Source: Aquabacter sediminis
Lineage (GTDB): Bacteria > Pseudomonadota > Alphaproteobacteria > Rhizobiales > Xanthobacteraceae
Length of the DNA stretch: 64,000 bases
NCBI RefSeq assembly: GCF_028863665.1
Contig: NZ_JARBFX010000014.1
Coordinates: forward strand, 1 to 64,000
Direction: 5' to 3'
Part shown: positions 8,757 through 22,056 of the stretch, piece after piece
Layout of the letters: each line of letters begins with the position of its first letter
How positions within the stretch are numbered: position 1 is the stretch's first letter
Notes under the pieces: model-generated
The model's input: the letters and a program-made list of their open reading frames with translations, nothing else
The model's database searches: none
Told to the model about the DNA's origin: nothing
Program-made: the position numbers and the translations under genes

Positions 8757-11712
8757 GGAGCCGCTCCCCTTCAGGATCCACGAAGCCCGGATGGCAGATT
8801 TCCACCTCGATGTCGCCGCCGCGCACCGGGTCATAGGCGCGCACGCGCTCGCCGATGCGCTCCGGGCCGCGCTTGATGAGGCCGAGGCCAATCCAGGTGT
8901 TCAGATGCGGGGAGAAGGTGACCGAGGTCATGTAGCCCTCATCATTCTCCACCTTGGCTTCGGCGCCGACCGCCAGGAAATGCGCGCCCGCGCGCAGCCG
9001 GGCGGTGGGGTCCACCGGCTTGAAGCCGATGAAGGTTGGCCGGTCGGGATCGAGGAAGGCGGGCCGCTGGGACAGGACGCGGCCGATATAGTCCTTCTTG
9101 GTGGACGCCATCTTGCCGAGCCCCAAATCGCGGGCGGAGGTCTGCCCGTTCAACTCGTTGCCGGAGACGTGGCCCTTTTCGATGCGCATCATGGCCAGCG
9201 CCTCGGTGCCATAGGGTGTGATACCGAAGGGCTCGCCCGCCGCCATCAGGGCGCGCGTGAGGGCCTCGCCCTGGCGGGCGGGCACCGCGATCTCAAACCC
9301 CAGCTCCCCGGAAAAAGAGAGGCGGAAGATGCGTGCCGTCACCCCGCCAAGCACGCTGCCCTGGAGCACGCCCATGAAGGGTAGGCCCGCATTGGAGACA
9401 TCGTGGGGGGCATCCACCACCTTGGCCAGCACCTCACGGGCGCGCGGCCCGGCAATGGAAATCTGCGCCCATTGCTCGGACACGGAGGCGAGCTGCACAT
9501 CCAGCTCCGGCCACAGCACCTGGAGGCAGAATTCCAGGTGCTGGAAGACCTTGGCTGCATTGGCCGTGGTCGTGGTCATCACATAGTGCTCGGGGCCGAG
9601 GCGGGCGGTGGTGCCGTCATCCATGACGATCCCGTCCTCGCGCAGCATGATGCCGTAGCGCGCCTTGCCCACCGCCAGGGTGGAGAAGGTGTTGATATAG
9701 ACGCGGTCGAGGAACGCGCCCACATCCGGGCCCTGCAGGTCGATCTTGCCGAAGGTGGACACGTCGATGAGGCCAACCGAACTGCGGGTCGCCTTCACCT
9801 CGCGGGTGACGGTCTCCAGCCAGTCCTTCTCGCCGGGCTTCGGGAAATACTGCGCCCGCAGCCACAGGCCCGTTTCCACGAACACCGCGCCCTGCTCCTG
9901 CGCCCAGGCATGGGTGGGGGTAGGCCGCACGGCGCGGAAGTCCTTGCCGCGATGGTGGCCCGCCAGCGCGCCCAGCGCGACCGGCGAATAAGGCGGCCGG
10001 AACATGGTGGTCCCGGTCTCGGAAATGGGCTTGCCCGTCAACTCCGCCATGATGGCGAGGCCGGTGACGTTGGACGACTTGCCCTGATCTGTGGCCATGC
10101 CCAGCGTGGTGTAGCGCTTTAACAGCTCCACCGCCCGGAAGCCTTCCTTGTGGGCGATGGCCACGTCCTTGGCGCTGACGTCGTTCTGGAAGTCGACGAA
10201 GGCGAGGCCCTTGCTGTCCTTCACATGCCAGAAGGGCGAGAGCGTGATGGGCCTGTCCTCGGCCTGGGGCACAGGGGTGGCCTGGGCGCTAAACCCGAGG
10301 TCATCAACCGCTTCCGCCGCCCGCGCGGCACCACTCGCCAATGCCCGCGCCAGGGAGAAGTCCGCCGCAGCCGCGCCCGCGACCGTCATGCCGGGCGGAT
10401 TCGTACCCGGCACGAACGCGGCGATGTCGGACCGATAGACCGGCTTGCCGCCGAAATGGCAGGTCAGGGCCACGTTGGGATTGGAGCCCCCCGACATGGC
10501 CAGCACGTCGCAGGCGATGGTTTCCGTGCCCTTGGGGCTGCGCACGCTGACGGAGGACAGCACCTTGCCGGAGGTGGCGATGATCTCGCCGCCGGTGATG
10601 ACACGCACGCCGCGCTTCTTCGCCCGCTCCATCTGGACCGCCGGCGGCTCCGCCCGCACGTCCACGATGGCCGCGATCTTGAGGCCCGCCGCTGCCGCAT
10701 CAAAGGCCGCCGACCAGGCATAGCCGTTATTGGCGAAGACCACGACGGAGGAACCGGGCGCCGCCGCATAGCGCACCGCATAGGTGCGAAGCGCCTGGGC
10801 GGACATGACGCCCGGCCGGTCATTGCCGCCGAACACGATGGGCCGGTCCAGCGCCCCGGCGCACAGCACCGCCCGCTTGGCCACGATCTTCCAATAGCGC
10901 TGGCGCGGCATGTGGGGCGCCGGCACGGCCAGATGGTCGCTCACCCGCTCAATCGCGCCATAGGTGCCGCCGTCATAGACGCCGAACACGGTGGTGCGGG
11001 GCAGGATGCGCACATTGGGAAGCGACGCCAGCTCCGCCTCCGCCGACGCCAGGAAGGCGCGGGCGGGGGCGTCGTCGATGCTGACCATCTCGGAGGTAAG
11101 GCGCCCGCCCAGGCGGAAGTCCTCGTCGGCGAGGATCACGCGGGCGCCGGAACGTCCTGCGGTCAGCGCCGCCATGAGGCCGGCGGCGCCGCCGCCGATC
11201 ACCAGGAGATCGCAGAAGGCAAAGGCCTTCTCGTAGGAATCCGGGTCCGGCAGGCCGGAGGCCGAGCCAAGGCCCGCCGCGCGGCGGATCGCCGGCTCAT
11301 ACACCTTCTCCCAGAAGGAGGCCGGCCACATGAAGGTCTTGTAGTAGAAGCCCGCGCCCAGGAAGGGGGAGAGCCACTGGTTCACCGACAGCACGTCGAA
11401 GTCGAGCGAGGGCCAGCGGTTCTGGCTGGTGGCGTCGAGCCCGTCATAAAGCTCGGCCATAGTGGCGCGGGTGTTGGGCTCGCGCCGGTTGCCCGAGCGC
11501 AGTTCCACCAGCGCGTTCGGCTCTTCCGAGCCGGCGGTGAGGATGCCGCGCGGGCGGTGATACTTGAACGAGCGGCCGACCAGGCGCACGTCATTGGCCA
11601 GCAGGGCCGAGGCCAGGGTATCGCCGGCAAAGCCCTTGAGGCTGCGGCCGTCGAACGTGAAGGAGAGCGGGCGGGAGCGGTCAATCAGCCCCCCGGTGGC
11701 AAGGCGGCTCAT
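8749..11712 (-). CDS. soxA: Sarcosine oxidase / N-methylglutamate dehydrogenase alpha subunit
   Basis: Large subunit, 987 residues. Domains in order: N-terminal ferredoxin-like domain (about 10-90), a Rossmann NAD-binding domain with VIGGGAAG (about 170), a second FAD/NAD-type region, and a C-terminal GcvT-like tetrahydrofolate-binding domain (about 600-980) which captures the oxidised methyl group as methylene-THF. ATG at 11712 overlaps the delta-subunit stop as ATGA; the longer frame upstream overlaps that gene and is rejected. Order beta-delta-alpha-gamma is that of soxBDAG and equally of mgdABCD. Substrate specificity cannot be read from sequence; neighbouring mgs and gmaS genes favour N-methylglutamate. 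Confidence 0.9.
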   Translation of the reverse strand: MSRLATGGLIDRSRPLSFTFDGRSLKGFAGDTLASALLANDVRLVGRSFKYHRPRGILTAGSEEPNALVELRSGNRREPNTRATMAELYDGLDATSQNRWPSLDFDVLSVNQWLSPFLGAGFYYKTFMWPASFWEKVYEPAIRRAAGLGSASGLPDPDSYEKAFAFCDLLVIGGGAAGLMAALTAGRSGARVILADEDFRLGGRLTSEMVSIDDAPARAFLASAEAELASLPNVRILPRTTVFGVYDGGTYGAIERVSDHLAVPAPHMPRQRYWKIVAKRAVLCAGALDRPIVFGGNDRPGVMSAQALRTYAVRYAAAPGSSVVVFANNGYAWSAAFDAAAAGLKIAAIVDVRAEPPAVQMERAKKRGVRVITGGEIIATSGKVLSSVSVRSPKGTETIACDVLAMSGGSNPNVALTCHFGGKPVYRSDIAAFVPGTNPPGMTVAGAAAADFSLARALASGAARAAEAVDDLGFSAQATPVPQAEDRPITLSPFWHVKDSKGLAFVDFQNDVSAKDVAIAHKEGFRAVELLKRYTTLGMATDQGKSSNVTGLAIMAELTGKPISETGTTMFRPPYSPVALGALAGHHRGKDFRAVRPTPTHAWAQEQGAVFVETGLWLRAQYFPKPGEKDWLETVTREVKATRSSVGLIDVSTFGKIDLQGPDVGAFLDRVYINTFSTLAVGKARYGIMLREDGIVMDDGTTARLGPEHYVMTTTTANAAKVFQHLEFCLQVLWPELDVQLASVSEQWAQISIAGPRAREVLAKVVDAPHDVSNAGLPFMGVLQGSVLGGVTARIFRLSFSGELGFEIAVPARQGEALTRALMAAGEPFGITPYGTEALAMMRIEKGHVSGNELNGQTSARDLGLGKMASTKKDYIGRVLSQRPAFLDPDRPTFIGFKPVDPTARLRAGAHFLAVGAEAKVENDEGYMTSVTFSPHLNTWIGLGLIKRGPERIGERVRAYDPVRGGDIEVEICHPGFVDPEGERLRV

Positions 11713-15160: not shown

Positions 15161-16570
15161 TCAGAGCTTGGCTTCCTTGCGCTGGATTGCCTCGAAGGCG
15201 GCTTCCATGCCGGAGGCGGCGGGGTAGGTGACGGGAATGTGCTTGCCGTCGAGGCCGTGGATCTCCACGGCGGGCGCGACGCGCAGCAGGCCGGCCATCT
15301 TCAGGAGCTTGCCGATGATGAGGCCGGGGATGAGGCCGAAGCCCAGCGCAAACACCAGGGAGCCGATGATGTTGCCGATGGGCGTGACCACGGGCAGGCC
15401 CTCGGCATTGCGGCCGAACCAGCCGGCGCCTTCCGACAGGGCGATGAGCGTCCCGTCAGAGGGCATGATGGCCGGGTAGCCCCACAGGGCAAAGCCCGCC
15501 ACGATGCCGCCGAACAGGCCGCAATAGCCGTGCACGGCCACCGCGCCCACCGCATCGTCGATCTTGTACTTCCGCTCCACCCAATAGTGCAGCTTGTAGG
15601 CCATGATGGTGCCGGCGATGGCGATGATCATGGCCACCACGGGATGGTAAAGATCGTTGCCGGACGAAGCGCTGATCAGCCCGGTGAGGCCGCCGGAATA
15701 GGTCCAGTAGGCGTTGCCGTTGCTGATCAGATAGGCGGTGACCATGCCGCCGAACAGGGCCATGAGGAAGTTCATGGTCACGCCGGACAGCGTTATCGGA
15801 ACGCCATAGATGTTGGTGGCGGTCCAATAGGGCGCGGCGGCAGTGCCCACGTTCGCGATCGGGATGTGGCAGGCGGCATAGAAGCCCCAGAAGCCCACAT
15901 AGATCATGAACAGGCCGATGGTGATGAGCCAGGGATTGTGCGCCGGAATCTCGCGCGGGGTGCCATCTGGGGCGAACTTGCCGATGCGCGGGCCCACATG
16001 GATGAGGATGCCGAGCGTCGCAAAGCCGGCCACCGAGTGCAGGATTGCCGAGCAATACTGGTCATGATAGCCCAGATACTGCGCCATCCAGCCATTGCCG
16101 GCCCAGGCCCAGGCGGCGGGGATGACCCATGCGATGGCGCCCACATAGACGGCGATGATGAAGAAGCCCGAGGTCTTGGTGCGCTCGATCAGGGCGCCGG
16201 AGACAATGGAGGCCGCCGTCATGCCGAACAGCGCGAAAGCCGCCCAGAACACGCCGGAGATGCGATCGCTGAGGTTGGGCGCGATCTTCGTGGACCAGGG
16301 CTCGAAGCCCGTCTCGAAGCTGAGCGCCGTGGACGACACCGGCCAGCCCTGGAAGGCGATGTAGATCCACATGCCGAACAGGAAGAAGGCAAGACCGACC
16401 AGCGGAATCGCCATCGTGTTCTTCAAAAGCGTGTGCTGGACATTCTTAACCCGCGCCGCGCCGACTTCGTACATGCAGAAGCCGACATGGATGAAGAACA
16501 TGAGGACGACCGTCAGGAAGAAATAGAATTCCGTGAATATGGTCGTCAGGGCTGTCAATTGATCTGTCAT
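15161..16570 (-). CDS. amtB: Ammonium transporter, Amt family
   Basis: A 469-residue integral membrane protein with eleven or so hydrophobic segments. The pore twin histidines are H178 (ILHSVAG) and H347 (AVHGYCG), and SGALIER in the middle is the conserved Amt segment. The start is ATG at 16570, with GGGGA upstream; the longer frame is rejected. Around the first pore His the usual acidic/AGG context is replaced by QYCSAILH, which makes this a divergent Amt. No signal peptide-like start and no glnK gene is adjacent. A sigma-54-like promoter lies about 100 bp upstream. It probably imports ammonium or methylammonium. Confidence 0.88.
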   Translation of the reverse strand: MTDQLTALTTIFTEFYFFLTVVLMFFIHVGFCMYEVGAARVKNVQHTLLKNTMAIPLVGLAFFLFGMWIYIAFQGWPVSSTALSFETGFEPWSTKIAPNLSDRISGVFWAAFALFGMTAASIVSGALIERTKTSGFFIIAVYVGAIAWVIPAAWAWAGNGWMAQYLGYHDQYCSAILHSVAGFATLGILIHVGPRIGKFAPDGTPREIPAHNPWLITIGLFMIYVGFWGFYAACHIPIANVGTAAAPYWTATNIYGVPITLSGVTMNFLMALFGGMVTAYLISNGNAYWTYSGGLTGLISASSGNDLYHPVVAMIIAIAGTIMAYKLHYWVERKYKIDDAVGAVAVHGYCGLFGGIVAGFALWGYPAIMPSDGTLIALSEGAGWFGRNAEGLPVVTPIGNIIGSLVFALGFGLIPGLIIGKLLKMAGLLRVAPAVEIHGLDGKHIPVTYPAASGMEAAFEAIQRKEAKL

Positions 16571-16976
16571 GCTGATCCCCAAACCCGTTGCCCTCAGCCG
16601 CATGAACCGACGCCGGCAGATCCCGCTGGGGAACCACAGAGTACGGCCCATGAGCAGTTCACTGTGGAGCAACTTTTATGCCAGGGAGGTGAAGCGGGCG
16701 CGTCCGGCGCTGCGTCATGTCTCAACGGCATGACCAACGGGAATAAGCGCCTGCCTAAGTCATTCAGCCCGCGGTGGTTTCCAAGCGGGCCCGATCACCT
16801 TCGCATCCTTACGGAAAAGGCAAGAAAAAGGGCGAGCCGCCAGCCATTTCGCTGCGCGTCATATCATTTGCACAAAGAACAACCGTATCCGCTGCGAAGT
16901 GCCCGCCGAACAGGCGCCGGGCGTGGCTGCGCGCCCCTGCCGGCGGCCCCATGCGGCTAAAGGGGAAGGCGCTGCT
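16571..16976. other. Regulatory gap upstream of the Amt gene
   Basis: About 400 bp without a credible gene. It holds a sigma-54-type promoter (16668-16684, minus strand). An AT-richer stretch near 16855-16885 (with TTTGCACAAA) may be an upstream activator region, but I could not find a full NtrC dyad. Confidence 0.45.
16668..16684 (-). promoter_or_regulatory. Sigma-54 promoter for the Amt gene
   Basis: On the minus strand the sequence reads CTGGCATAAAAGTTGCT, against the consensus YTGGCACG-N4-TTGCW. The invariant GG and GC are separated by exactly 10 bases. It implies nitrogen (NtrC-type) control of the transporter and its small partner. Confidence 0.75.
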
Positions 16977-17864
16977 TCAATCGTCGTCGAGGGAGAAGAT
17001 GCGGGCGGGCGCCGCGCGCAGGAATCCCCGGAAGGCGTAAGGCGTGGTGGCGTCATAGGTGGGAAGCGGCATGTCCTGGGCGGTCAGCGTGAGCTGGTCC
17101 CCGAACACGCCGCGAATGTCCACATGACAGTGGCGGGCCAGAACCACTTCGCTTGGCCCGTCATCGGTCTCCAGGTCGAAAATATCCCGGTCCGGCACCG
17201 ATGTGAGGGCCACGTCGACCGTCGCGCTGCGCGTGATGTGAAGCGAACTGCTGCTCAGATTGAGGCCGTCTTCCGCGGGCGAGACGACGCGCAGACGCTC
17301 CAGGCTCACCTGCGAATTGGTGAGGTCGAAGCCATCATCCCCCGAATGGTAGCTGCGCACTTCCCTGACCGTCCATTCCTGCGGGCCCACGCCCATGAGG
17401 GACACGCCATCCCGATCGTCCTGTCGCGGGTCGTCCTTGCCATTCTGCGGATCGCCGTGGCCCAGATAATAGCCGGCGATGAGATCCGCGCTGAACGCGG
17501 AAGGCTCGACGTGGGGCGCCGGCGCCACCACAAGTCCGTCCTTCGTGGCGGGATGATGGGTGCCGCAGAACCAGACCCCGCCATTGTCCGCCACACGCAC
17601 CGCCCGAAAGCGGTCATCGCAGGCTTTCAGAAACAGGCGCCCCGCCTGGAGCCGCGCGCCGGGCTCGAAGATCAGCGCCGCCCGCCGAAGGGTGCCTGAG
17701 CGGCGGGTTCCATTCTGAATGAGGATGGTCGTCCCATCCTCGGCCGCCAGCATGGCCCCAGCCTTGACGCGCACTTCGCTGGCCACAGCATAGGGCCGCT
17801 CGGCCGTCAGCCGCCGGACACCCGTGATCGGTCCTTCCAGGAGCTCGAAGCGCTGCTCAGTCAT
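16977..17864 (-). CDS. Right-handed beta-helix-like protein of unknown function
   Basis: A 295-residue protein without a visible signal peptide. The middle and C-terminal parts show stacked short strands with Asn/Ser/Asp turns (GDDGFDLTNSQVSLERL, EDGLNLSSSSLHITRS), as in parallel beta-helix proteins. No catalytic motif is evident. Its start overlaps the stop of the preceding DUF4239-type gene by four bases (ATGA), so it is translated with it. I do not recognise a closer family. Confidence 0.7.
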   Translation of the reverse strand: MTEQRFELLEGPITGVRRLTAERPYAVASEVRVKAGAMLAAEDGTTILIQNGTRRSGTLRRAALIFEPGARLQAGRLFLKACDDRFRAVRVADNGGVWFCGTHHPATKDGLVVAPAPHVEPSAFSADLIAGYYLGHGDPQNGKDDPRQDDRDGVSLMGVGPQEWTVREVRSYHSGDDGFDLTNSQVSLERLRVVSPAEDGLNLSSSSLHITRSATVDVALTSVPDRDIFDLETDDGPSEVVLARHCHVDIRGVFGDQLTLTAQDMPLPTYDATTPYAFRGFLRAAPARIFSLDDD

Positions 17865-18682
17865 GGCTGTTTTCCGGTGGGGTGCAGGATGGGATCCTGG
17901 CTGCGCAAGCTGTCATAAACGGCGGTGATGCTATCGTCGGAGATGCTGGTGTCGCCCAGATAGGGCAGATCGACGATGGCGATGGCGCCCAGCATGAGCG
18001 TCAGCATGATGAGCTGCACCGTCAGCGTGACCACGCGCATCAGGCTCGCCTCCATGAGGCGCAGCGCGCAGATGATGATGACGCCGGCAATGCTGATGAC
18101 GCTCACCGTGTAGAACATGGTGGGCAAGGTGTTGGAGATGTTCATGAGCCGGTCGTTGCGCGCCTGTGCCACCTGGTCGGCAGCCACCAGGATGCGGCCG
18201 AAGACTGTGTTGGTCTTCGGCGATTGCGGATCGATCCGGTCGATCTCGCGGAACACATTGGTCAGTGCGGCGGAGGTGCGCTCGCTGCCATGGCCGAAGC
18301 GCAGGCCGGGCCACTCGTCGGTCAGGATCGACCCGGTATAGGCGATGAGCGCCTCCCGCGCTTTCAACGCCGGTGCTGTTTGATCGAGGATGAGAAGGCG
18401 GTTGAGGCTCTTGATGGCCTGGGCCTCCTGCGAAACCTTGTCGTCCATGCCGGAGGCCGTGGTCATGACCAAGGCGAGCACGAAGCCGAGGACCACGTAG
18501 CCCCCGGACATGGTGTTCTGCGTCGCGGTGTCGATGATGTCCGTGTCGTACTGAAGGCACTGGAACTTCCGGTTCACGGCCTGCAGCACCAGCGTCACCA
18601 GCCCCAGGATCAGGCAGGACACGATCGGAAACAGGACCAGAAGCTGCGTGTCCGTCAGTCGTTCGATGAGGAGGGCGTACAT
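17861..18682 (-). CDS. DUF4239-type (bestrophin-like) membrane protein
   Basis: A 273-residue protein with four likely membrane helices: about 12-35, 57-77, 185-206 and 212-236. Between helices 2 and 3 is a cytoplasm-type helical domain (DDKVSQEAQAIKSLNRLL and FREIDRID). The layout matches the DUF4239 bestrophin-like family, whose function is unknown. It is the middle gene of a three-gene minus-strand operon, 30 bp after the TAXI-type gene. Confidence 0.7.
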   Translation of the reverse strand: MYALLIERLTDTQLLVLFPIVSCLILGLVTLVLQAVNRKFQCLQYDTDIIDTATQNTMSGGYVVLGFVLALVMTTASGMDDKVSQEAQAIKSLNRLLILDQTAPALKAREALIAYTGSILTDEWPGLRFGHGSERTSAALTNVFREIDRIDPQSPKTNTVFGRILVAADQVAQARNDRLMNISNTLPTMFYTVSVISIAGVIIICALRLMEASLMRVVTLTVQLIMLTLMLGAIAIVDLPYLGDTSISDDSITAVYDSLRSQDPILHPTGKQP

Positions 18683-18712
18683 CCCGCTGCCGCTTTCTCT
18701 AGGATGTGGAGT

Positions 18713-20089
18713 CTAGGAGGGTTGCTCCAGCGTGGAGCGCTTCTTCCGGGCGTCCTGAAGCGTGCCGCTGATGGTGCGTCGCAGGTTGAAATAGTGGCGC
18801 AACTGGTCGTCGGCGACCCAGGTGGTGGCCACCGTGTGATCCAGTTGCTGGAGCCCGGCAATCACCACATCCACCTGACCAGCCGTGCCGGCGGCGCCCA
18901 GCTCGTCTTCCAGGTAGCGAAGCTCCCAGAAATGCAGCCAGAGCAGCCGCTGCGAGGCAAAGCTGCGATAACCGAACAGCTTCTTGAAAGCCGGCAGGGC
19001 GAGCAGGAACAGGGCCAGCAGCACCACCCAGACATTCTCCACCATGGCGGCCAGCCAGAACGGCAGGTAGCTGAAAAAGACGGGCACGCCGGTGGTGTAG
19101 AAGCGCAGGCCCACCGGGCTCAGGGGGAAGCCCTGATCCTTGTAGCGGGGGAGGGTGTCAGCGGCGGGGAAGAAGTTGTTGGTCTTCAGGTTGGTGTCCC
19201 GTGCCGCCATCAGGAAGGCCCATTGCACCGTGGGGTGCGTGTCCTTTTCCACCAGGAGGTTCACGCCCGAGGCCAGCAGCGCCACATCGGCCCGCGGACG
19301 GATCTCGGCAATGTCCAGCGCGCCGCGCGGCACGGTCACCTTCTGCAGGAAGGGCAGGCGGCGTGCATAGGCATCGGCGAGCGGGAAGTTCATCAGCTGG
19401 ATCTGCGGCGCGTTCAGCAGTTTCTGAACCAGCGTGGAGCGGAAGCCGTCGACGATGAAGAGCGCGTCGATCTGGCCGGCAAGCAGGCGCTCTACCGCCT
19501 CCTCATGGGGGAGCTTCAGGAAATTGGGCCTGTCGCCCGTGCCGGGATTGTTCATCTCCATCAGCGTGGCGAAAAGCTTCTGGCTCACCGTGCCGGGCGC
19601 TCCCACGGCCACGACCTTGTCCTTGATCTCCTGGAACGGGTCGTCCGCGGCCACGGGGTCGCCCCGATAGAACAGCCACAGCGGCGCCAGCGCCACATTG
19701 CCCAGCGAGACGAGATCGGGATAGGCGGCAGGCGATCCCGCGCCCGAAATCACGAAGCTCGCATTGATGCGAGACTTGGGATCCCGCAACTCCTTCTCGA
19801 TCTCGTTCAGCCCCATCCGGTTTTCGACCTGGAGGGAGAGGCCTTGGCGCTGGAAATAGGCCTGGAAGGCTTCGCCGAGCTTGTCCGTCAAGGTGTCGCG
19901 CTGGCCCGTCGCTAGGTAGGTGGCGCGCCCCGGCATCGGATTGATATAAAAGAGCACGGCGAGCGCAGCCAAGGCGAGCGCGGCTGCAACCGGCACGTAA
20001 TAGATGCTGATCCGGCTCAGCGTCGAAATTTCGCGCGCCAGATCATGGCGCGCGTACATGCGGATATAGGCGAGAAGACTTTTGAACAT
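18713..20089 (-). CDS. Membrane-anchored TAXI-family solute-binding-like protein
   Basis: A 458-residue protein. An N-terminal membrane anchor (about 29-49) follows a basic cytoplasmic start. Residues about 55-345 form a TAXI-type binding domain (YLATGQ near the start, ISGAGSPAAYPDL, VGAPGTVSQKLF, VDGFRSTLVQ). A second membrane span (about 360-382) and a 70-residue helical cytoplasmic tail follow. No TRAP permease gene is nearby, so it may act as a sensor or as partner of the DUF4239 protein rather than in transport. The start at 20089 has a promoter immediately upstream. Confidence 0.8.
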   Translation of the reverse strand: MFKSLLAYIRMYARHDLAREISTLSRISIYYVPVAAALALAALAVLFYINPMPGRATYLATGQRDTLTDKLGEAFQAYFQRQGLSLQVENRMGLNEIEKELRDPKSRINASFVISGAGSPAAYPDLVSLGNVALAPLWLFYRGDPVAADDPFQEIKDKVVAVGAPGTVSQKLFATLMEMNNPGTGDRPNFLKLPHEEAVERLLAGQIDALFIVDGFRSTLVQKLLNAPQIQLMNFPLADAYARRLPFLQKVTVPRGALDIAEIRPRADVALLASGVNLLVEKDTHPTVQWAFLMAARDTNLKTNNFFPAADTLPRYKDQGFPLSPVGLRFYTTGVPVFFSYLPFWLAAMVENVWVVLLALFLLALPAFKKLFGYRSFASQRLLWLHFWELRYLEDELGAAGTAGQVDVVIAGLQQLDHTVATTWVADDQLRHYFNLRRTISGTLQDARKKRSTLEQPS

Positions 20090-20096
20090 CCTCGAT

Positions 20097-20125
20097 CATA
20101 TGAAAGAGGTTCATATACGGGTCAA
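20097..20125 (-). promoter_or_regulatory. Sigma-70-like promoter with operator-like dyad
   Basis: On the minus strand TTGACC (20120-20125) and CATATG (20097-20102) are 17 bases apart, very close to the start at 20089, giving a near-leaderless transcript. An inverted repeat TATGAA-AGAGG-TTCATA (20099-20115) sits in the spacer and could bind a repressor. Confidence 0.45.
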
Positions 20126-20281
20126 GCGCCGAAAATAATTGCACGGGCAAACCAAGTATTGCTCGGGGCGGGTGGTTGTGCCTTTGCTTGGCCTGCTTCA
20201 GGTAGATTTAAAATATTGGTGTCTATTGGCCCGCTACCACCCGGCTGGCCGCAAGGAAATGGAATTTGGCGAGGAGGTATA

Positions 20282-20383
20282 ATGAGCCCCTCGTTCCGCA
20301 ATGGCCGGGTTCGCGGGGCGGCCGGTCTGGCAAATGGAAAGCGGAGAATTGTCTCTTGTCCAAGCGCGGGAAAAATGACGTGA
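20282..20383 (+). CDS. Possible 33-residue peptide with perfect Shine-Dalgarno
   Basis: ATG at 20282 is preceded by GAGGAGG with four bases between, the strongest ribosome site in this gap. The peptide (MSPSFRNGRVRG, ending AGKMT) is basic and unlike anything I know. It could be a spurious frame; the call rests only on the ribosome site. Confidence 0.2.
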   Translation: MSPSFRNGRVRGAAGLANGKRRIVSCPSAGKMT

Positions 20384-20565
20384 GGCACGTCGCAGGCGGC
20401 GGTGGCTTTCACTCGCGCGCTGCAGTCTCAGGATTGGAAATATTCTAGGGAGGCTTTGGCGCCCGAAGCCTAAAGCGACTGGCCCCTGCGCGCCGCGGCA
20501 GGCGGGCGGCCTGCAGGAAGGCGATCTTGAGCGCGGCAGACAAGGCGCGATTTCAACGCCAGAGG

Positions 20566-20606
20566 GCGCGATCCGCTGAGATGGACGACATCCGAGCGGA
20601 TCGCGC
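20566..20606. repeat. Long intergenic palindrome
   Basis: Twelve-base perfect arms GCGCGATCCGCT (20566-20577) and AGCGGATCGCGC (20595-20606) with a 17-base spacer. It shares the GCGCGATC core with the element at 6774-6798. Confidence 0.5.
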
Positions 20607-20700
20607 TCCCCGGAGCGCGCACCACATGGGGCATTGCCAGGCACTTGGCACTGCCTGTGCGCGCCGCAGTGCCCGAAGAGGGGCGAAGCGATTCTGCGCT

Positions 20701-22056
20701 TCAGATATCCAGCGTGTTGTCACGCTCCCACTGGGTCAGGTGGCGGGAATAGGCGTTCCATTCCTCGCCCTTGAGCTTGAGGTAGCCGGAAACGAAGCTC
20801 TCGCCGAGGCTGTCCTTCAGCACCTTGGAGCGATCCAGAGCGCGCATGGCATCCAGCATGTTAAGCGGCAGCTTCTTGGCGCCCTTCACCTTGTGGCCGT
20901 CCGTGTACATGTTGATGTCGAGGCGCTTGCCGGGATCGCGGCTATTGGTGATGCCGTCGAGGCCCGCCGCCAGGACGCCCGCCTGTAGCAGATAAGGGTT
21001 CGCCGCGCCATCGGCGAGGCGGAACTCGAAGCGCCCCGCATCGGGAATGCGGATCATGTGGGTGCGGTTATTGCCCGTATAGGTCACCGTATTGGGCGCC
21101 CATGTGGCGCCCGAAATGGTGCGGGGGGCGTTGATGCGCTTGTAGGAATTCACCGTGGGATTGGTGATGGCGCACAGCGCGTCCGCATTGTGGATGAGGC
21201 CGCCGATGAAATTGTAGCCGAGCGAAGAAACCCCCAGCTCGCCCTTGGGATCGGAGAAGGCGTTCTTGCCGTTGTTCCAGAGCGAGACATGCACGTGGCA
21301 GCCCGAGCCCGTCAGGTTGATGAAGGGCTTGGGCATGAAGGTGGCGCGCAGGCCATGCTTCTCGGCGATGGACTTGACCATGAACTTGAAGAAGACGTGC
21401 CGGTCGGCGGTCAGGAGGGCCGCGTCATAGTTCCAGTTCATCTCGAACTGGCCGTTGGCGTCCTCGTGGTCGTTCTGGTAGGCACCCCAGCCCAGGGTGA
21501 GCATGGCATCGCAGATTTCCTTGATGACCTCGTAGCGGCGCATCAAGGCGGACTGGTCGTAGCACGGCTTCTCGGCGCGGTCGGAGCCGTCCGAGATGGC
21601 GGTGCCGTCGGCGGAGATGAGGAAGTATTCGCACTCCACGCCGGTCTTCATCTCGTAGCCGAGGCTCGCGGCAGCGGCGAGCTGCTTCTTCAGCACCGTG
21701 CGCGGCGCCTGCGCCACCTCCGTGCCGTCCATGTAGAGATCGGAGGCGAGCCACCCGATTTCCGGCTTCCAGGGCAGCTGGATGAGGGAGGAGGCGTCCG
21801 GAACCGCGAACAGGTCGGGATCGGCCGGGCTCATGTCGAGCCAGGTGGCAAAGCCCGCAAAGCCCGCGCCGGCCTTCTGCATGTCGCCGATGGCTGATGC
21901 GGGGACGAGCTTGGCGCGCAGGCCGCCGAACAGGTCCACATAGGAAATGAGGAAATATTTGATGCCCTTCTCCTGCGCGACCTTCTCAAGGTCGGCGGAG
22001 GCGGCGATGGAGGCGCGGCCTTCGGCTTCGCGCGGCAGGTCGAACGAACGGGTCAT
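20701..22056 (-). CDS. gmaS: GlnT-type glutamine synthetase, probable gamma-glutamylmethylamide synthetase
   Basis: A 451-residue ATP-dependent ligase of the GlnT (type III glutamate-ammonia ligase) family. Visible are the metal-binding acidic residues in ECEYF and NDHEDANGQFEMNW, the CHVHVSLW active-site strand, and the ATP/phosphate segment GNNRTHMIRIP with RFEFRLADG. Sequence alone cannot separate GlnT from GmaS, which joins methylamine to glutamate. The adjacent glutamate-synthase-like genes and the Mgd/Sox set nearby favour GmaS. AGGGGA lies upstream of the ATG. It lies 76 bp after mgsC on the same strand. Confidence 0.75.
   Translation of the reverse strand: MTRSFDLPREAEGRASIAASADLEKVAQEKGIKYFLISYVDLFGGLRAKLVPASAIGDMQKAGAGFAGFATWLDMSPADPDLFAVPDASSLIQLPWKPEIGWLASDLYMDGTEVAQAPRTVLKKQLAAAASLGYEMKTGVECEYFLISADGTAISDGSDRAEKPCYDQSALMRRYEVIKEICDAMLTLGWGAYQNDHEDANGQFEMNWNYDAALLTADRHVFFKFMVKSIAEKHGLRATFMPKPFINLTGSGCHVHVSLWNNGKNAFSDPKGELGVSSLGYNFIGGLIHNADALCAITNPTVNSYKRINAPRTISGATWAPNTVTYTGNNRTHMIRIPDAGRFEFRLADGAANPYLLQAGVLAAGLDGITNSRDPGKRLDINMYTDGHKVKGAKKLPLNMLDAMRALDRSKVLKDSLGESFVSGYLKLKGEEWNAYSRHLTQWERDNTLDI

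Follow-up and report, generated by a model that had tools for sequence, protein, structure and literature searches.

In the stretch of DNA analysed here, the first 64,000 nucleotides of contig NZ_JARBFX010000014.1 of Aquabacter sediminis (hereafter the window), three adjacent genes on the minus strand encode a TAXI-type binding protein anchored at both ends (18713..20089, 458 aa), a membrane protein of the PF14023 'Bestrophin-like' family, DUF4239 (17861..18682, 273 aa), and a soluble, putatively beta-helical protein, here termed BH (16977..17864, 295 aa), which has no hydrophobic segment at its N terminus or elsewhere. All three genes are confirmed, and they behave as one unit. We tentatively read this module as a receptor complex that would act independently both of tripartite ATP-independent periplasmic (TRAP) transporters and of the methylamine genes next to which it lies in the window. 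This reading, which we hold at somewhat less than an even chance, draws on properties predicted from sequence, namely the two spans of the TAXI protein, an invariant tail core next to the second of them, a changed binding pocket and a constant membrane partner.

A preliminary description of the window had named the three genes, with an ATGA overlap, and would have given up its proposal had they not occurred together in other genomes. The open reading frames, their coordinates and the overlap, which joins DUF4239 and BH, are as it claimed, and TAXI, DUF4239 and BH follow one another in this order on one strand in 8/8 distinct loci, spread over three families and six flanking contexts; these loci were recruited via TAXI or BH, so the count describes genes that do not separate and is not a frequency. 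They comprise the window, the metagenome-assembled genome (MAG) Rhizobiales 12-68-15, Xanthobacteraceae 501b, Ancylobacter polymorphus, A. vacuolatus, Kaistia dalseonensis, K. hirudinis and genome G625; the order is kept at 59–75% protein identity to the window. In the 198 family genomes searched, BH homologues and close homologues of TAXI and of DUF4239 each occur in five, and these are the identical five genomes; close TAXI matches score at least 672 bits (next best 205) and close DUF4239 matches at least 514 bits (next best 63.5). Two TAXI peptide patterns, applied to 84,980 species genomes, gave six close loci (four already known from the family) and six distant ones; one pattern falls inside the tail core discussed below and may have selected both Kaistia loci, not the others. 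When 397 genomes of the order were searched for BH, four gave a match, including the new locus in G625, and 385 genomes at class level added no convincing one. The identity matrices of TAXI, DUF4239 and BH correlate (0.87, 0.78, 0.74), as is expected for genes inherited together.

The TAXI protein scores 28.9 bits against the Pfam family NMT1_3 (cut-off 27) and 23.3 bits against TIGR02122, below the cut-off of 84.35, and both profiles are matched by all seven members of the TAXI alignment A6 (E<=0.1). The two membrane spans of the preliminary description are recovered by hydropathy at residues 29–47 (19949..20005, minus strand) and 346–364 (18998..19054, minus strand). Over the eight loci the first is poorly conserved (45% mean identity) and the second well conserved (82%). 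Beyond the second span, the core of the presumed cytoplasmic tail (residues 375–397; 18899..18967, minus strand) is invariant at 21 of its 23 positions; its mean identity is 96%, whereas the periplasmic part has 75%, and it ranks top of all 23-residue segments of the protein, the next separate one being residues 234–256 with 92%. The presumed cytoplasmic parts are slightly basic (basic versus acidic residues 5 to 2 and 12 to 10). Cysteine is absent from the window protein and from three others, and the remaining four have one to three; the window protein, having none, is thus without a lipobox. In a tree of 32 sequences a long branch leads to the module TAXI proteins, which form a single clade (support 1.0). 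Of the preliminary suggestion that the TAXI protein senses a ligand or gates its partner, it can be said that a conserved cytoplasmic tail would be compatible with either role.

The binding pocket points away from glutamate as the ligand. The chief glutamate determinants of VcGluP are Tyr45 and Gln93 (PMC11574862), and an equivalent Tyr/Gln pair binds L-glutamate in BP0403 (PMC12344293). Pocket columns were assigned here by motif alignment, not on a structure. At the position of the key Gln, residue 114 (19748..19750, minus strand), all eight module proteins have Val or Ile, as against Gln in 20/24 distant homologues; at residue 91 (19817..19819, minus strand) Arg is found in 8/8 module members and Thr or Ser in 24/24 distant ones. 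Residue 68, the putative Tyr45 column, is Thr or Ser in 8/8 module proteins, but just 14/24 distant proteins have Tyr there, which makes this column less certain. Since the key Gln is replaced in every module member, the ligand is probably not glutamate.

These 24 distant homologues, which come from the family search (13 of its 22 distant places), the genome scan (all six) and the plasmid records (five of 18; nine weak or partial places of the family search were excluded: three in G130 and those in G161, G009, G027, G033, G012 and G003), share the plan of span, TAXI domain, span and tail with the module proteins without exception. They make up a group of orphan double-anchored TAXI proteins from alpha- and betaproteobacteria (L032–L044, L054–L059, L144–L148, where L058 ends at a contig end), of which the only annotated ones, in L145, L146 and L147, carry the label of a TRAP transporter subunit. 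Apart from the Gln, which 20/24 retain, they differ from the module in their surroundings, since within stretches of 3.4–19.9 kb BH accompanies none of the 24 and a DUF4239 gene one. This one case, on the Roseovarius THAF8 plasmid (L146:5929-8269), is a double-anchored TAXI gene adjoined by a convergent DUF4239 gene whose product scores 59.8 bits against PF14023; near-identical copies of the pair on THAF27 and THAF9 leave it a single independent case. One direct DUF4239 neighbour among 24 loci might arise by chance, although we consider this unlikely (about 1% by our own estimate). A PAS/GAF histidine kinase gene follows the Roseovarius pair. The 18 plasmid records with distant TAXI proteins contained neither BH nor the window's DUF4239 (E<=1e-5), the stretch between gmaS and TAXI had no match on plasmids, and no stretch of viral contigs matched the TAXI patterns.

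The membrane partner scores 97 bits against PF14023 (cut-off 32), covering profile positions 43–231 of 232, and this Pfam family alone was listed at E<=1. Hydropathy gives it four or five spans; a model from seven sequences is all helix but unusable, with a mean pLDDT of 43. The small TRAP subunit DctQ, considered as an identity for the four-span partner, was rejected, no such Pfam match being found at E<=1. A DUF4239 profile was built from the window, from six of the seven other module loci (G625 left out) and from distant members; it matched in 7/7 module loci and in 25/25 distant DUF4239 loci, the latter having been used in building it.

For BH, no Pfam family was found at E<=1; in its alignment, a single sequence out of six gives a weak Pfam match (E 0.017), and the score against TIGR03805 (beta_helix_1) is 22.1 bits, below the cut-off of 141.5. 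Hydropathy shows no membrane span. A model from six sequences takes the shape of a beta-helix, with pTM 0.63, a mean pLDDT of 57.8 and 117 of 295 residues under 50. Compared with 265 chains, it reached Z>=5 in 211, the best being Z 12.8 over 228 residues; Foldseek returned nothing at E<=0.001 (best E-value 0.11). With modest confidence, the model suggests a right-handed beta-helix, the fold of pectate lyases, AlgG, NosD and tailspikes, but BH differs from these proteins in having neither a sequence family nor a signal peptide. NosD and the beta-helix enzymes work outside the cytoplasm. The fold relatives of BH are many and unspecific, and no enzyme activity can be assigned from them. A further BH match in G201, of 53 residues (E 3.4e-4) and with an internal stop, was discarded as chance.

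The preliminary description was also right that no TRAP permease is linked to the module. Six DctM queries found none in the window or in 39 loci, and DctM has no match on the 113.6 kb contig to which the window belongs; the other two of eight permease queries (L066 and L164) are by eye not DctM, and their matches in L037 and L042 were not counted. Elsewhere in the genome there are 16 DctM matches, corresponding to about 15 genes. Four of these loci were viewed: at three of them, two with a fused permease and one whose subunits are separate, the adjoining binding protein is by eye of DctP type, and the fourth has no binding protein within the stretch taken. NMT1_3 is above its cut-off in only two proteins, one of them the window protein. 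With the TAXI-TRAP systems such as VcGluP/VcGluQM (PMC11574862; PMC5812351), the module has in common a TAXI protein with NMT1_3 and a weak TIGR02122 match. It differs from them in having no linked fused DctQM permease, in a TAXI protein held at both ends by spans where theirs is a soluble or lipid-anchored substrate-binding protein, and in the replacement of the glutamate determinants (the Gln, and less certainly the Tyr).

The nearest precedent is the TAXI-GltS pair of Bordetella pertussis (BP0403/BP0402), in which a TAXI protein without a TRAP permease is likewise encoded by a gene coupled to that of a different membrane protein (PMC12344293). BP0403 is a predicted lipoprotein that dimerises and carries an additional N-terminal domain, and the authors of that study note that the coupling still requires experimental proof (PMC12344293). 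The partner there, GltS, is a full carrier, in contrast to the four-span DUF4239 protein plus BH of the module, and the module TAXI protein has two spans, a cytoplasmic tail and a replaced Gln, probably also a replaced Tyr. Where that pair has GltS, the gene after TAXI is DUF4239 in 8/8 loci, as found without a search aimed at GltS. Membrane-anchored TAXI proteins are reportedly the concern of Roden et al. (2023). The literature searched held no description of a TAXI/DUF4239/BH set.

Our working model of the receptor complex is as follows. The TAXI domain would lie in the periplasm, anchored by its two spans, and would close upon its ligand, probably an anion other than glutamate. The second span and the invariant tail adjoining it could relay this movement to the DUF4239 protein with its four spans. 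That protein might then open as a path for ions or anions or otherwise change its state, and the soluble BH would dock at the cytoplasmic side as a scaffold or effector. The module would function autonomously and would owe its location behind gmaS to insertion. A bolder version, which we regard as rather doubtful, makes the TAXI Venus-flytrap domain a two-span receptor gating a bestrophin-like DUF4239 channel with BH as cytosolic adaptor; the double-anchored orphans would then be a widespread receptor class sharing its ancestry. TAXI proteins carry TRAP-subunit labels, and a double-anchored group with no linked permease, one branch of which has constant membrane and soluble partners, suggests that the fold has been recruited beyond TRAP transport, in parallel to the TAXI-GltS proposal. 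DUF4239 gains a first candidate partner.

Several observations weigh against the receptor reading. In 23/24 distant TAXI loci the stretches of 3.4–19.9 kb have no DUF4239 match, and in the converse direction 25/25 distant DUF4239 loci, examined out of 60 distant places in the family genomes, lack matches to TAXI and to BH of the window over a distance of about 1.5 kb; the distant homologues being mostly apart, neither protein needs the other in general. The Roseovarius genes are convergent and so form no single operon. The channel label of the DUF4239 protein derives from a Pfam family name. BH may be dispensable, as it is broken in one locus: in MAG 12-68-15 (L028:8383-8972) it has lost an internal stretch and changed frame, and TAXI and DUF4239 remain open beside it. 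One of the roughly 15 TRAP permeases encoded in the genome may also act in trans.

Among other explanations we think it fairly unlikely that the TAXI protein passes its ligand to DUF4239 as a carrier, in the manner proposed for TAXI-GltS. TAXI proteins are otherwise transport proteins, the B. pertussis pair suggests that one may serve a carrier outside the TRAP family (PMC12344293), and the module has no linked TRAP permease, so that uptake has a better precedent than the receptor reading; but about four spans are few for an elevator carrier, delivery of a ligand would need neither two anchors nor an invariant cytoplasmic tail, and the tail and BH are left unexplained, BH without any role. A part in envelope or lipid homeostasis, with the TAXI protein sensing an anionic lipid or a breakdown product of a nucleotide-lipid, is unlikely. 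It would take the gene for CDP-diacylglycerol pyrophosphatase (CDH, PF02611), which follows BH in 4/8 loci (L029:12507-13424 and L154:10813-11694 among them), as the original fourth gene; in these four genomes the CDH query matches nothing else. Genes of alpha/beta-hydrolase type near the module in K. dalseonensis and, with a score under the Pfam cut-off, in G625 would suit this reading. However, the four CDH loci are one clade in the TAXI tree and may reflect a single event, and in the nine genomes searched CDH is separate from the module in the window's genome and K. dalseonensis, is present in the module-free genome G018, and was found neither in K. hirudinis nor in the 82%-complete MAG 12-68-15.

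The position of the module in the window raises the question of methylamine metabolism, to which the preliminary description had tied it. The neighbouring genes show matches to glutamate-synthase-like proteins, to a glutamine synthetase of type III (gmaS) and to a subunit resembling that of sarcosine oxidase; we take them to be genes of the N-methylglutamate (NMG) pathway, and the module stands directly behind gmaS both here and in MAG 12-68-15. The location in the methylamine locus is thus correct for the window, but a functional role is very unlikely, whether as a sensor or as a transporter of methylamine, gamma-glutamylmethylamide or N-methylglutamate. In its favour, mgsC occurs in all five module-bearing genomes of the family compared with 52/198 overall. 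Three of those five genomes, however, belong to one genus (g22), in which 11 sampled genomes have mgsC; 6/8 loci lie elsewhere than in a methylamine locus; and, of the two Kaistia species, K. dalseonensis has mgsC (86%), but K. hirudinis carries the module with a best mgsC-like match of 34% and otherwise short fragments. Moreover, genome G018, of the same genus as the window, has a methylamine locus without the module, at 87–99.8% protein identity in the genes compared (best piece each). Similarity by BLAST between the two ends at the stop codon of gmaS (20701) and returns at 16696, leaving a stretch without match (16697..20700) whose inner end is uncertain, as a weaker local alignment extends to about 16782 and the insertion may end there; in G018 the gap between gmaS and amt is about 410 bp. 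From this empty site, the absence of the module from all ten other NMG loci fetched and the lack of mgsC in K. hirudinis, we conclude that the module came to lie behind gmaS by insertion and not as a member of the pathway. Rarity, the absence from the corresponding site in G018 and the broken BH of MAG 12-68-15 could also describe a remnant or a drifting islet without present function, but this we disfavour as highly improbable, given that all three frames are open, and BH whole, in 7/8 loci, that gene order is retained at the identities given above and that dN/dS is 0.105–0.316 in the 14 gene pairs printed (NG86; dS 0.35–0.80).

The remaining flanks, several of whose gene names were assigned by eye, are polar amino-acid ABC genes in A. 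vacuolatus, transposase-like and ABC genes in 501b, a DUF892 gene and a contig end in A. polymorphus, a cadmium-transporter gene in both Kaistia loci, and dehydrogenases with the alpha/beta-hydrolase-like gene in G625. No match of any of the three proteins to the PADLOC defence models was found at E<=0.01.

The DUF4239/BH overlap in the window is not general, as the two genes are spaced by 1–2 bp in the other seven loci (ATG starts as chosen here). The single promoter of the preliminary description did not emerge from a sigma-70 scan of 16500–20800, which gave one site, on the opposite strand, and none for the three-gene unit; by eye, a weak promoter-like TTGACC-17-CATATG lies upstream of TAXI (20097..20125, minus strand), and its TTGAC element stands in equal register in the window and MAG 12-68-15. 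Between gmaS and TAXI there is a weak terminator-like hairpin (20377..20391, minus strand; 5 such hairpins in the region, with 3.0 expected from shuffled sequence). In G018 (L134:14048-14458) a hairpin with a T run was seen by eye right behind gmaS, and was not seen in the window. The two 400-base ends of the inserted stretch share no 11-base word, direct or inverted. In MAG 12-68-15, a 149-bp copy of the end of a LysR gene (88%) lies on either side of the module (L028:5655-5803 and 8984-9132), and these copies are perhaps a trace of its insertion after gmaS.

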